Assembly: GCA_900170005.1 (NCBI GenBank)
Contig: LT827128.1
Location: forward strand, 3,840,168-3,904,167
DNA length: 64,000 nt
Direction: 5' to 3'
DNA from: Gordonibacter massiliensis (ex Traore et al. 2017)
GTDB lineage: Bacteria; Actinomycetota; Coriobacteriia; Coriobacteriales; Eggerthellaceae
Part shown: positions 31,609 through 63,438 of the stretch, one piece after another
Layout: the number at the start of each line of letters is the position of its first letter
How positions within the stretch are numbered: position 1 is the stretch's first letter
Notes under the pieces: generated by a model
Seen by the model: only the letters and a program-made list of their open reading frames with translations
The model's database searches: none
What the model was told of the DNA's origin: nothing
Program-made: the position numbers and the translations under genes

Positions 31609-32547
31609 CTACCCGCGCCAGAGGCGCTCGGCGGGCGCGCCCTCGCCGCGAGCGAGCTCGGCGCCGGGCAGGTCCTCGTGCATCTCCAGGATGTTCTTCC
31701 ACAGGCGCTTGGGCATGAACTGGCGACGCAGCTCGGGGTTGTAGCGCGCCTCCACGGCCACGGTGCGGTAGAAGCGCTTCCAAGCGGCCTGCATAAGCCG
31801 CTCGTCGGCGGCGCGGTCGGGCACGTTCAGCTCGTCGGTGCGCACGAGGTACCAGTCGCGCCCCTCGTACACGCCCGCCAGGCGGTGCACCTCGTCGTAG
31901 ATGATGAACGGCTGCGTGTTGAAGCGCCCGGCGAACCAATCCATGAGCAGGGGCACCACGGAGGCGGAGGGGTTGCAGCGCGCGAGCCACACGCCGTTCT
32001 CCAAATGCTCGAAGCGCAGGAACTGCACCATGTGGTGGCGTTCGTTGCCCACGGCGCGCACCAGGCGGTGCAGGGGCTCCACGGCGGGGTGGGCGAGGTC
32101 GTTGAGCACGCTTTTGCTCGCCTTGCCCGAGCACCCGATGGCGTCGGTGGGGCGGCTCGACCCCATGGGGCCGCTGCACGAGCCGCGTTTGCGGCACCCG
32201 GAGCAGTCGTGCGGACGGTTGGCCGCCATGGCGTAGCGCACGAAGCGGTACACGACGGTGCCCGCGTCAGGATCGTCGGAGAGCGAGGCGCGCATGACGG
32301 CGTCGTAGGCCGCGGCTCCGCAGGCCCGCTTGATGCCGCGCTGCACGCGCACGGCGCGCTCCACGTCCGTCTCGACGAAGCGCACCGTCTGCCCCAGGCG
32401 CGGCTGGAGGATCGCCTCCGGAGCGACGTCCTGCGGGTCCTCGCGACGGGCATACGCCTCGAACACGGCCGAGAGCAGGCCTTCCAGCGATCCGTCGTAG
32501 GCGTAGGCCACGTCGGAAAGCGGCTCTTCAGGCGCGACGCCGCTCAT
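31609..32547 (-). CDS. DNA-metabolism protein paired with radical SAM enzyme (DUF4130/TIGR03915-like)
   Basis: 312 residues, recognised as the partner protein always found with the TIGR03916 radical SAM enzyme. Marks: YAYDGSLEGLLSAVFEAY at the N-terminus, HRLVRAVGNERHHMVQFLRF, DWFAGRFNTQPFIIYDEVHR, WYLVRTD and the C-terminal PELRRQFMPKRLWKNILEM. An insertion with Cys residues (CSGCRKRGSCSG) is seen in the middle. Its start overlaps the radical SAM stop as ATGA, so the two are translated together. The role in DNA repair or modification is inferred by the family and by the SOS-type promoter upstream. Confidence 0.88.
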   Translation of the reverse strand: MSGVAPEEPLSDVAYAYDGSLEGLLSAVFEAYARREDPQDVAPEAILQPRLGQTVRFVETDVERAVRVQRGIKRACGAAAYDAVMRASLSDDPDAGTVVYRFVRYAMAANRPHDCSGCRKRGSCSGPMGSSRPTDAIGCSGKASKSVLNDLAHPAVEPLHRLVRAVGNERHHMVQFLRFEHLENGVWLARCNPSASVVPLLMDWFAGRFNTQPFIIYDEVHRLAGVYEGRDWYLVRTDELNVPDRAADERLMQAAWKRFYRTVAVEARYNPELRRQFMPKRLWKNILEMHEDLPGAELARGEGAPAERLWRG

Positions 32548-34073
32548 GCGGGCACCGCCTCGGGCTGCTCGAGGGCGCGCTGCCAGCCGAAGACCCCGTC
32601 GGCGGCCGGGCGCCCCGTTCCTCCGACACGCCTCTGGGCGGGGGCGGCCGACGCGCCTTCGCGATCGTCGATCCCGTCGGCGAGTCGCGCGCGATCCGCG
32701 TCGGACAGGGAACGCCCGCTCCCGGCTCCGCCGCCTGCGATGCGGGCCTTCTCGGGCGTTTCCACGCTTTCGAACAGGCTCATCTGGCCGGGGCAGGTCT
32801 TGTCCGCCCGGCGTCCGTGGTTGCCGCCCTTGGTGGGCGCGGCCAAGTGCGCCCGCAGCCCCTCGCGGGAGAAGTCCGCGCCCTGGCCCGCGTATTTCCC
32901 GTTGCATGTGATGAAGAAGCGGGCTCGCTTGTAGGCTACGCCCAAACGGCGCAGCTCGCGTTCGCCGAGCGTCGTGGTGCGGCGCGCCCGCACGATGGAG
33001 TGCGCTCCCTTCACGCCGATGCCCGGCACGCGCAGCAGCGCCTCGAGCGGCGCCTTGTTCACCTCGACGGGGAAGAAGTCCAGGTGGTTGAGCGCCCAGT
33101 TCGCCTTCGGGTCGACCTCGGGGTCGAGGAAGGGGTGCTCCTCGTCGATGATCTCGGCGACGTCGAAGCGGTAGAAGCGCAGCAGCCAATCGGCTTGGTA
33201 GAGCCGATGCTCGCGGTTGAGCTGCACGGCGTCGGTGCCGGGCAGGCGCGCGTCGTCGTTCACGGGCGTGTAGGCGCTGAAGAACACGCGCTTGAGCGAC
33301 AGCGTGCGGTAGAGCGCGGCCGACAGGTTGAGTATCTGGAAGTCGCTCTCGGGCGAGGCCCCCACGATCATCTGCGTGGACTGCCCGGCCGGCACGAAGG
33401 CCCGCTCCTTCTTCTTCGGCCGCACCTGCTTCATGTACGTGGTCTGCTTGCGCACGAGCGCGCGCGTGTCCTTGTCGACGGCGATGTTGTCGCGTATCTG
33501 GCGCATGGGCGCGAGGATGCGCTGCTTGTCCTTTTCGGGCGCGAGCAGCGCCAAGCTCTTCTGCGAGGGAAGCTCCATGTTCACGCTCATGCGGTCGGCC
33601 AAATGCCCCAGCTCGTCCACGAGCTCGGGGGAGGTGCCGGGCACGGCCTTGGCGTGGATGTAGCCGCGGAAGCCGTGCTCGTTGCGCAGAAGCGACAGCG
33701 TTTGGATCATGAGCTCGGTGGTGTAGTCGGGGTTCTTGATGACGCCCGAGCTGAGGAACAGCCCCTCGATGTAGTTGCGGCGGTAGAACGCGATGGTGAG
33801 GTCGGCCAGCTCGCGGGGCGTGAAGGCCGCGCGCTTCACCTCGTTGGAGCAGCGGTTGACGCAGTAGGCGCAGTCGTAGACGCACACGTTGGTCATGAGC
33901 ACCTTCAGCAACGTGATGCAGCGCCCGTCCGCCGCGAAGCTGTGGCAGCAGCCCGCCGCCATCGTGTTGCCCAGCTTGCCCTTCTGCGCGTCGCGGTCGA
34001 TGCCCGACGACGTGCAGGCCACGTCGTATTTCGCCGCATCGGCAAGCACTTCCAGTTTGTCGATCAGTTCCAT
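32544..34073 (-). CDS. Putative DNA modification/repair radical SAM protein (TIGR03916-like)
   Basis: 509 residues. The radical SAM motif is CVYDCAYCVNRC; the core continues with FLSSGVIKNPDYTTELMIQT and GYIHAKAVPGTSPELVDELG. A helix-hairpin-helix DNA-binding motif is clear, LEALLRVPGIGVKGAHSIV. The C-terminal about 90 residues are low-complexity. It probably acts on DNA with its overlapping partner gene; the chemistry is unknown. I prefer ATG 34073 (MELIDKLEVLADAAKYD), the usual family start; ATG 34097 is possible. The promoter at 34124-34152 carries a LexA-type box. Confidence 0.9.
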   Translation of the reverse strand: MELIDKLEVLADAAKYDVACTSSGIDRDAQKGKLGNTMAAGCCHSFAADGRCITLLKVLMTNVCVYDCAYCVNRCSNEVKRAAFTPRELADLTIAFYRRNYIEGLFLSSGVIKNPDYTTELMIQTLSLLRNEHGFRGYIHAKAVPGTSPELVDELGHLADRMSVNMELPSQKSLALLAPEKDKQRILAPMRQIRDNIAVDKDTRALVRKQTTYMKQVRPKKKERAFVPAGQSTQMIVGASPESDFQILNLSAALYRTLSLKRVFFSAYTPVNDDARLPGTDAVQLNREHRLYQADWLLRFYRFDVAEIIDEEHPFLDPEVDPKANWALNHLDFFPVEVNKAPLEALLRVPGIGVKGAHSIVRARRTTTLGERELRRLGVAYKRARFFITCNGKYAGQGADFSREGLRAHLAAPTKGGNHGRRADKTCPGQMSLFESVETPEKARIAGGGAGSGRSLSDADRARLADGIDDREGASAAPAQRRVGGTGRPAADGVFGWQRALEQPEAVPA

Positions 34074-34123
34074 GCGCACGCCCGTTCGCCAGATCAAATG
34101 TTCGCCATAATATCCGTTCGTTT

Positions 34124-34152
34124 ATAATAGGCAAACGGGCGTTCGTTGTCAA
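34124..34152 (-). promoter_or_regulatory. Sigma-70 promoter with SOS (LexA) box in the spacer
   Basis: On the minus strand TTGACA (34152-34147) and TATTAT (34129-34124) are exactly 17 bases apart. The spacer holds CGAACGCCCGTTTG (34145-34132), one mismatch from the Gram-positive/actinobacterial LexA consensus CGAAC-N4-GTTCG. A bound repressor would block the promoter, matching a DNA-damage role of the operon. Confidence 0.8.
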
Positions 34153-34230
34153 TCAACAGAACAAGGCGATGGAAGATCGGCCGGATCTCGAAACCCGAGG
34201 GCGGCCGAGCCCGATTCCGCTTCCGGCATG

Positions 34231-34259
34231 AAAAAAGCCAGGCACTCGTAATGCCTGGC
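34231..34259 (-). terminator. Terminator of tRNA-Thr
   Basis: On the minus strand GCCAGGCA pairs with TGCCTGGC around TTACGAG and is followed by six T. It lies 15 bases after the tRNA 3' end. Confidence 0.92.
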
Positions 34260-34273
34260 CTGCGGTTTCGTGG

Positions 34274-34345
34274 AGCCAGTGACAGGACTCGAACCTGCAA
34301 CCCACAGTTTACAAAACTGTTGCGCTACCATTGCGCCACACTGGC
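34274..34345 (-). tRNA. tRNA-Thr(TGT)
   Basis: Read on the minus strand: acceptor stem GCCAGTG with CACTGGC, D-arm GCGCAATGGTAGCGC, anticodon stem ACAGT/ACTGT around the loop TTTGTAA (anticodon TGT), and T-arm with GGTTCGAGTCC. CCA is not encoded. The cloverleaf is complete with 72 bases including the discriminator base. A strong terminator follows. Confidence 0.95.
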
Positions 34346-34489
34346 ACGCTATCGTTCGCGTCTGCGTATTGTACGTCATCGACTTCGTTTAGGGAAGCCC
34401 GATGGGACCAACGGACCTGCGCCAAGGCGTGACGCGGCCCGCGCGCGGTCGAACGAGATCCTTCCGCGCGCAGGGGCGGGGAGGGGCCG

Positions 34490-35518
34490 TCACCCCTCGC
34501 GCAACACGGCGCGCCTGAACGCGACCGCGTCGTCGGGCGATACGCAAACCGCGCGCACGGGGCGGGGCTTGCCCAAAAGGCTGCGCGCCTGCACGGGCTC
34601 GGACAGCACGATCCAGCACGGCGCCGCGCCCAGGGCCGCCATGTTCACGCGCTCGCGCTTCGGCAGGGCGGGCTCGCCGGCCCCCACGCTCTCCACCAGG
34701 TCGAGCGGAACGTCCAGGCGGAAGTGGGATCCCCATTTCACCCGCAGCGTGTCGTCGTCCACGAGCAGCGGGTTCAACGCGACGGCCCGAGCGTCGCCGA
34801 CGATCCACGCGAGCGTGTACGCCGTGAGCGCCGTGAGCGCGATAGCCGCCGCCTCGCTCCATTGGGCGACGAGCAGGTGAACGGCGGCCGCCTCGATGGG
34901 CAGCAGCGCCGCGATCACGCCGACCAGGGCCAGGTACCCGCTTTTCCGGTGGTAGGAGAACGCACGGCTTCCTGCGGGGACGATCGGCGCGCGCCGCCAC
35001 GAGAACAGCGCATAGTACCAAATGGAAAGCTCCGTCGCGCACGCATGGGCCGCGCCCTCGTGACGAACGAGTTCGAGGAAGGGGCGCTCGAACCACTCGA
35101 GCGGTTCGTCGGATGCCCGGCGCGCCGCACGGAAGCTCCGCGCGAGCCGTCGTCCCTCGCGGATGCCGATCGTCAGGTCCACGGCCACGGCCAGCGCGGC
35201 GAGCGGCACGTGCAACGAGAACTGCCCCGCAGGCGCGAACTGCGCCGAAACGAGGCCGCCCAAGCCGATGACGGGCAGCACGAACAGCGGAGACAGCCCG
35301 TTTCTGCGAACGACCAGCAGGTAGAACGCCAACGGCACGCACACCATGAGGTCGAACGGCACGGCGACGCCCGCTGCGAAGGCGCGCCCCGCATCCGGAA
35401 CGGCGGCCATGCAGGCGAGGTCGATGCCGTACAACGCCAGGCAGACGGCGAGCGGCAGGGCGAGCCGCGCCGCCTTTGATCCGGCGGGCGAGGAGGGGTT
35501 CGGCAAGGCGGCGTTCAT
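34490..35518 (-). CDS. Polytopic membrane protein of unknown function
   Basis: I do not recognise a family. The 342-residue product has about seven hydrophobic segments, for example ARLALPLAVCLALYGIDLAC, VPFDLMVCVPLAFYLLVV, LFVLPVIGLGGLVSAQFA and YLALVGVIAALLPIEAAAV, then a soluble C-terminal domain (about 240-342) with WGSHFRLDVPLDLVESVGAG, which resembles the membrane-bound PH-like domains of other actinobacterial proteins. AAGGAG precedes ATG 35518 by 7 bases. It is divergent from asnB. Confidence 0.7.
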   Translation of the reverse strand: MNAALPNPSSPAGSKAARLALPLAVCLALYGIDLACMAAVPDAGRAFAAGVAVPFDLMVCVPLAFYLLVVRRNGLSPLFVLPVIGLGGLVSAQFAPAGQFSLHVPLAALAVAVDLTIGIREGRRLARSFRAARRASDEPLEWFERPFLELVRHEGAAHACATELSIWYYALFSWRRAPIVPAGSRAFSYHRKSGYLALVGVIAALLPIEAAAVHLLVAQWSEAAAIALTALTAYTLAWIVGDARAVALNPLLVDDDTLRVKWGSHFRLDVPLDLVESVGAGEPALPKRERVNMAALGAAPCWIVLSEPVQARSLLGKPRPVRAVCVSPDDAVAFRRAVLREG

Positions 35519-62607: not shown

Positions 62608-62623
62608 TGTTTCACGTGAAACA
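62608..62623. promoter_or_regulatory. parS centromere site (ParB binding)
   Basis: TGTTTCACGTGAAACA is a perfect 16-bp palindrome that matches the universal bacterial parS consensus (TGTTNCACGTGAAACA). The palindrome extends to AATGTTTCACGTGAAACATT. No parAB genes are in the window. Confidence 0.9.
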
Positions 62624-62916: not shown

Positions 62917-62961
62917 GCCAAACATCGAAAGGGCCGAGTGGGCCGAATGCGAAAGGGTGGC

Positions 62962-63438
62962 ATGGCGGACGTCGTCGACACAGCGGAGAGCACGAAGGCG
63001 GCGACGGAAGTCGTCGACCTCAACGGCGAGTTCCGCTTCAAGGTCGATGCCAAGGGCCGTATGTCCCTGCCCGCGAAGTTCCGCAAGGTGCTTTCGAACG
63101 ATCTGGTGGTAACCCGCAATCCGAAGGACGAGTGCCTCTACGTCTTCGAGCCCCGTGGCTTCAACGCCTGGGTCGCGGAGGTGTTCGAGGACAAGTTCGG
63201 CAAGTACGACTCTTCCAACGACCTGCACGTGCGCCTGCGCCGCAAGCTCAAGGCACGCGCGAAGGACGTCGAGGTGGACGGCTCGGGACGCATCATGCTC
63301 CCGTCGGAGGCGCGCGAGGCGACGGACATCGACAAGGACGTCGTCGTCGTGGGCAACACGGGCTATTTCGAGATCTGGGACGCGAAGCGTTACGAGGTGC
63401 AGGACGACGACACCGACCTCGGTGTTCTGTTCGGCTGA
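62962..63438 (+). CDS. mraZ: MraZ transcriptional regulator
   Basis: 158 residues. Two SpoVT/AbrB-like modules: NGEFRFKVDAKGRMSLPAKF and VEVDGSGRIMLPSEAREATD. MraZ is the first gene of the division and cell-wall (dcw) cluster and represses it by binding GTGGG repeats, which are present in the promoter. ATG 62962 with AAAGGG 4 bases upstream is preferred; ATG 62947 and GTG 62938 are in frame. It has an N-terminal extension of about 25 residues before the first module. rsmH follows 9 bases after the stop. Confidence 0.95.
   Translation: MADVVDTAESTKAATEVVDLNGEFRFKVDAKGRMSLPAKFRKVLSNDLVVTRNPKDECLYVFEPRGFNAWVAEVFEDKFGKYDSSNDLHVRLRRKLKARAKDVEVDGSGRIMLPSEAREATDIDKDVVVVGNTGYFEIWDAKRYEVQDDDTDLGVLFG

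Follow-up and report, generated by a model that had tools for sequence, protein, structure and literature searches.

A putative LexA-controlled radical SAM/DUF4130 operon with an array of operator-like boxes in Gordonibacter massiliensis

A LexA-type box inside the promoter of an operon raises the question of whether the genes behind it are switched on by DNA damage, and of what their products would then do. Such a promoter is located on the minus strand of the window, by which is meant the whole stretch of 64,000 nucleotides of Gordonibacter massiliensis DNA that was analyzed. It consists of TTGACA (from 34152), a 17-nucleotide spacer and TATTAT (to 34124), and precedes a radical SAM gene with its start codon at 34073. 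Two promoter-like sites were revealed by scanning positions 33900-34500, the shuffle mean being 0.1. As claimed in the original prediction, CGAACGCCCGTTTG lies within the spacer, and it is the sole exact match to CGAACRNNYGTTYG in the 64 kb. Three additional CGAAC sites were identified towards the start codon. From the upstream neighbor onwards, the features are:

34271-34345, minus strand: tRNA-Thr(TGT), the upstream neighbor on the same strand (tRNA search)
34235-34261, minus strand: terminator-like hairpin and T tract, separating tRNA-Thr from the promoter (one found against a shuffle mean of 0.7, not above chance by count)
34124-34152, minus strand: sigma-70-type promoter TTGACA-N17-TATTAT (11 of 12 consensus bases)
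34132-34145, minus strand: box 1, CGAACGCCCGTTTG, between the -35 and -10 elements (-2.9 bits under the matrix built from lexA promoters; half-site information 1.24 and 1.16 bits)
34107-34120, minus strand: box 2, CGAACGGATATTAT, over the presumed transcription start (-1.7 bits; half-sites 1.93 and 1.81 bits in 14 in-register promoters)
34091-34104, minus strand: box 3, CGAACATTTGATCT, in the leader (14.5 bits; half-sites 1.93 and 1.83 bits)
34075-34088, minus strand: box 4, CGAACGGGCGTGCG, adjoining the start codon (-6.0 bits; half-sites 1.63 and 1.26 bits)

The single box that had been proposed as the operator is correctly placed, but the putative operator is an array of four sites, of which three had been missed and the noted one is not the best. 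Likewise, the description "near-textbook" holds for the architecture of this promoter but not for the strength of that box. Box 3 was the top match of the lexA matrix in the whole window, and box 4 is the weakest evidence for a LexA site among the four. Box 2 ends in ATTCT or ATTCC in the other 13 in-register relatives, and the ATGG at the start of the radical SAM gene is kept in 14 of 14.

The use of exact-motif enrichment as proof of LexA control failed. The exact sequence CGAACNNNNGTTYG is present at 11 distinct places in 3.95 Mb and is not enriched genome-wide, with 17 strand counts as compared to 20 for the reversed control. About 4e-4 exact copies are expected per given 150-bp promoter (150 x 11/3.95e6); box 1 is informative by its position, not by the frequency of its motif.

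One LexA match was found in the genome, carrying PF01726 (HTH) and Peptidase_S24 (autocleavage) domains. The possibility, raised with the original prediction, that the LexA of this organism recognizes a different box was checked in its own promoter, where AGAACCTTTGTTCG, CGAACAAAGGTTCA and a weaker third site, AAACATTTGTTCG, are of the CGAAC-N4-GTTCG type. Because this promoter and the lexA promoters of the host's bacterial family (L001, L013-L042) carry such sites, LexA most likely uses the CGAAC-N4-GTTCG box type here, as far as can be judged from sequence. The family promoters mostly have three boxes at 28 or 29 bp, with at least three sites in 22 of 30. The recA promoter of this genome likewise shows a TTGACA-box-CATAAT design, with CAAACATTTGTACG, and exact LexA-type boxes are located directly upstream of rarA/mgsA (L008) and ruvC (L011). 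The lexA matrix was constructed from 60 sites, allowing at most one mismatch, in 31 lexA upstream regions of the family. Three of these regions yielded no matrix site, including one with only 40 bp of upstream sequence, and scores of lexA promoters with this matrix are training-set scores.

Other sites were met in the scans. A LexA-type box, CGAACATAAGTTCG, is found just before TATAAT at G000:C1:3365724-3365737 (L010), upstream of a pair of genes for Gp49 (PF05973) and HTH_3 proteins, possibly an SOS-controlled toxin-antitoxin module to judge by its sequence. At window positions 62608-62623, upstream of an ORF (62938-63438) which by eye encodes MraZ, there is a parS-like palindrome, TGTTTCACGTGAAACA, which we take to be a ParB site of the parS consensus type. 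A lexA-matrix match at 62618 was set aside since it overlaps this parS-like sequence.

Conservation of the boxes was followed in 83 radical SAM promoters of the family, i.e. those of the 84 genomes over the cut-off minus G080, in which the start of the gene is on another contig; lexA of G110 and rpsB of G006 were excluded for too little upstream sequence. The best site between -150 and +14 reached at least 8 bits in 72 of the 83 promoters (dinucleotide shuffles, 1.9%). With the same matrix and threshold, 24 of 31 recA promoters and 0 of 30 promoters of the ribosomal gene rpsB were positive. Allowing up to two mismatches, at least one site was present within 150 bp in 81 of 83 promoters (shuffles, 9.3%) and at least two sites in 76 of 83 (shuffles, 0.2%), and the controls gave 27 of 31 for recA and 0 of 30 for rpsB. 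The two exceptions have boxes at -274 and -247 (G018) and at -276 and -251 (G071), the first upstream box lying behind TTGACA in G018 and TTGACT in G071. The radical SAM promoters share the box type and the multiple boxes with the lexA promoters of the family but differ in a non-random spacing, which is 16 bp in 54 neighboring pairs and 23-26 bp in 40, as compared to 28 bp (36 pairs) and 29 bp (12 pairs) at lexA.

The 14 in-register promoters used for the footprint had been picked by their CGAAC-like bases at -56 and -40, so that conservation in the left half of box 2 and of box 3 results from this selection. The unselected right half-sites of boxes 2 and 3 have 1.81 and 1.83 bits, respectively, against 0.23 bits further upstream, and in this alignment boxes 2 and 3 appear better conserved than box 1. 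These 14 promoters are from near relatives and their conservation is partly descent; that of the leader could also come in part from an RNA or translation signal.

Outside of the family, sites of this type were found in some groups. The promoter set was made up of 42 of 80 loci (L188-L224 and L239 being left out as family members) and 19 loci of a further search, which remained after L291 (gene start missing) and family members had been set aside, three weak matches of that search having no locus; groups were assigned from record titles and family labels. All 11 metagenome-assembled genomes of Coriobacteriales/Coriobacteriia taken as outside the family (identity 56-64%) reached at least 10 bits (shuffles, 1.4%), and 4 of 6 genomes of another family of the same order reached 8 bits (shuffles, 3.3%). 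Among Clostridia/Bacillota, 16 of 29 radical SAM promoters scored at least 8 bits (shuffles, 2.8%). With the lexA matrix of the host family, 8 bits were reached by 1 of 13 other Actinomycetota and by neither of the two Endomicrobium promoters; for these Actinomycetota a shuffle percentage is not given, because sequences containing N had stayed unshuffled. Based on these low scores (1/13, 16/29, 0/2), the link to LexA would be lineage-limited, or other LexA motifs would be used in the low-scoring groups. In the low-scoring cases LexA may be absent or recognize a different motif, or transcription may come from an operon promoter further upstream.

The two genes behind the promoter were identified by profile searches, in agreement with the pair that had been named for this locus, and their features are:

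32544-34073, minus strand: radical SAM protein TIGR03916, 509 aa (609 bits, cut-off 343.5)
33861-33884, minus strand: C64, C68 and C71, forming the CX3CX2C cluster motif (kept without exception in the 44 aligned proteins)
32979-33068, minus strand: helix-hairpin-helix-like segment, residues 336-365 (PF12836 E 0.00073, below cut-off; ComEA-type HhH E 7.4e-5)
32772-32786, minus strand: QMSLF, candidate beta-clamp-binding motif, residues 430-434 (QxxLF consensus)
31609-32547, minus strand: partner TIGR03915/DUF4130, 312 aa (TIGR03915 211 bits, cut-off 112; DUF4130 138 bits)

The ATG of the partner gene overlaps the TGA of the radical SAM gene (ATGA). Both families are over their cut-offs in 84 each of the 119 family genomes, 83 of which have both; either one is present in 85 genomes, G118 having only TIGR03916 and G100 only TIGR03915, and G066, whose match is below the cut-off, being left out of the 84. 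Among named relatives, Gordonibacter sp. 28C has the enzyme closest to this radical SAM protein (91% identity). The Radical_SAM domain itself was matched with 31.6 bits. The further cysteines C20, C43, C52 and C390 are kept in 43, 40, 42 and 42 of 44 sequences, respectively, and could hold an auxiliary cluster. The predicted model of this protein (pLDDT 78) gave lipoyl synthases as best fold match (Z 17.3, rmsd 3.0 over 220 residues), followed by HydE, matches which appear to reflect only the common radical SAM barrel; spore photoproduct lyase was not among the best 50 rows. That no chemistry is known for the pair, as had been stated, fits the database names, which read "putative" and "domain of unknown function".

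The QMSLF motif is located in the low-confidence tail of the radical SAM model (pLDDT about 50) and conforms to the clamp-binding consensus QL[S/D]LF or QxxLF given, with QLSLF as the motif of PolC, in PMC12309361. QxxLF was found in 63 of 76 radical SAM tails from the genome scan, 1.2 being expected from shuffled tails; the 76 are the 80 radical SAM loci minus four without stop codon (L209, L219, L247, L257). Near variants such as QLSIF, QLSLW and QLSFF are present in 12 of the 13 remaining tails. One of the 13, L224, comes from a truncated gene, and its tail had been excised at an incorrect position. Of the 80 loci, 60 were also inspected directly. As a control, the last 120 aa of 42 aligned partners were scanned, and QxxLF is in none of them, 1.08 being expected. 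On this pattern the QMSLF tail is likely to dock on the beta clamp. No paper joining a clamp motif with a radical SAM protein was among the matches listed in the open PMC literature. In 13 of the 42 DUF4130 partners, from other groups, QxxLF occurs outside of the last 120 aa, where a second clamp-type motif or a strand of the fold is possible. The distant radical SAM relatives L290 and L292, of other Actinomycetota, have by eye neither a downstream DUF4130-looking ORF nor a clamp-type motif; that motif and partner go together is just a hint from two cases.

The partner was analyzed by profile scans, for which its first 19 residues were removed, and by structure prediction (pLDDT 86, pTM 0.83). 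A uracil-DNA glycosylase domain was not matched on either protein of the pair in the profile search. The top two Foldseek matches of the partner reached TM-scores of no more than 0.26-0.28. With a second aligner, nearly every listed row was, to go by its title, a DHH/DHHA1 protein (RecJ, Cdc45, family II pyrophosphatase, NrnA), but the best of these matches (Z 8.2, rmsd 5.2 over 192 residues) is close to the level of unrelated models. A relation of DUF4130 to DHH/RecJ proteins by sequence received no support from hhalign against RecJ, NrnA-type and PPase-type profiles, with probabilities of 0.1, 0.1 and 3.7% from three shallow profiles; these had been built from 30 loci labelled by length and motif, the NrnA set being mixed. 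The RecJ/Cdc45-like resemblance of the model is a weak lead. A weak profile match to TM1739 (1zup) was also obtained (E 0.54). A cysteine-rich insert, CSGCRKRGSC (window 32176-32205, residues 115-124), is present in the partner and in only some of its relatives.

Taken together, repression of the operon by LexA, i.e. SOS control, is highly probable from the sequence comparisons, and the LexA-repressed promoter of the original prediction is supported by the way the boxes are kept in 83 relatives, as judged against positive and negative controls. Against it are the poor scores of boxes 1, 2 and 4 with the lexA matrix. The CGAAC array might instead be bound by another regulator, or be partly a leader-RNA or translation signal, LexA not being the main controller. 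Boxes 2 and 3 indeed deviate from the lexA consensus (ATTCT, GATC) and yet have strongly conserved right halves, while box 4 touches the start codon, before which a clear Shine-Dalgarno sequence is not visible. This alternative is improbable, as the same type of palindrome is found at lexA, recA, ruvC and rarA, the family-wide enrichment is specific (rpsB 0/30), and the boxes of G018 and G071 sit together with a promoter 247-276 bp upstream, which is operator-like. A chance box, with constitutive expression of the operon or its transcription from the tRNA-Thr promoter, might be proposed from the chance-like genome-wide frequency of the exact motif and from the terminator-like hairpin after the tRNA, which does not exceed the shuffle count. 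The operon has its own strong promoter, however, and at least one box occurs in 83 of 83 family members, in 81 of them within 150 bp and in the other two at a greater distance upstream. Based on this conservation and the controls (81/83 against 9.3% in shuffles; rpsB 0/30), a chance origin was rejected as extremely improbable.

It could also be that the operon is SOS-controlled and that its enzymes serve DNA modification instead of repair, or have a nucleic acid other than chromosomal DNA as their target. The NCBI name "DNA modification/repair" would fit, and lipoyl synthases and HydE, the best fold matches, are generic radical SAM barrels. The HhH segment, the clamp-type motif in 63 of 76 tails and the SOS control favor DNA repair or replication, and this reading is regarded here as rather unlikely, though it retains some weight. 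As for the function, the best guess remains that the pair processes damaged bases of DNA at replication forks or close to them.

The array, its conservation and the matching operator of lexA are observed directly; the binding of LexA and the induction we infer from them. LexA dimers would occupy box 1 between the -35 and -10 elements, box 2 at the transcription start, box 3 and possibly box 4 in the leader, and the operon would be off. Upon DNA damage, RecA would trigger the self-cleavage of LexA and the operon would be released. The gene pairing, the cluster motif and the clamp-type motif are likewise visible in the sequence; binding to the clamp, DNA as the substrate and the chemistry are inferences. 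The products would be a radical SAM enzyme, which has an HhH segment of the DNA-binding type and probably docks on the beta clamp by its tail, plus the DUF4130 partner, and damaged bases of DNA in the vicinity of replication forks would probably be repaired or processed by the two together. Tentatively, and with considerable doubt, they might form an SOS-induced, clamp-docked radical SAM machine which reverses or repairs base lesions at stalled forks, with a QLSLF-type C-terminal tail, maybe a second iron-sulfur cluster (C20, C43, C52, C390), and a partner of RecJ/Cdc45-type DHH descent whose nuclease site is gone and which has turned to binding DNA or nucleotides.

COG4277 is presumably the same protein family as TIGR03916. 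A two-gene COG1573-COG4277 operon with a uracil-DNA glycosylase is reported to be under SOS control in Bacteroidetes, and the same control is cited there for Verrucomicrobia and Alphaproteobacteria (PMC8565304). The idea of SOS control is less new than had been assumed, because that of this related operon with uracil-DNA glycosylase was already published. Both are two-gene operons under damage-response control. The operon described here differs in that its partner is TIGR03915/DUF4130 without the glycosylase domain, that its boxes, arrayed up to four in number, are of the Gram-positive CGAAC-N4-GTTCG type, and that its clade is Coriobacteriia. It corresponds to the TIGR03916/TIGR03915 pair of NCBIfam, both members being adjacent and over their cut-offs; the SOS array and the clamp motif are additions to the definition of that pair. 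A figure legend in another paper ties DUF4130 to SplB-like proteins (PMC3765255). SplB and spore photoproduct lyase-type enzymes also belong to the radical SAM proteins with a link to SOS and DNA repair, but lipoyl synthase and HydE were the best fold rows of the model here. The LexA regulon of Streptomyces venezuelae includes the radical SAM protein vnz_31145 (PMC9380542); here, too, a LexA site accompanies a radical SAM gene of an actinobacterium, possibly one of another radical SAM family. The operon is not named in the portion of the main text covered of a study on the gut SOS meta-regulon (PMC3998124), and in a term search the words "radical SAM", "uracil" and "glycosylase" were absent from the main text of a Caulobacter SOS paper (PMC12700426). 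The form without uracil-DNA glycosylase and with a multi-site operator, as in Coriobacteriia and part of Clostridia, was not found among the matches listed in the open PMC literature. The SOS-controlled kind of operon is known, and this form is a new addition to it.

The TIGR03916/TIGR03915 pair recurs across Coriobacteriia, Clostridia and other groups. The family-wide LexA operators tell when the enzymes would be produced, and the clamp-type motif suggests where they act; a search for the substrate could therefore concentrate on DNA damage that blocks replication in gut anaerobes. If the clamp-docked machine were real, it would represent a radical-chemistry repair pathway coupled to the replisome.
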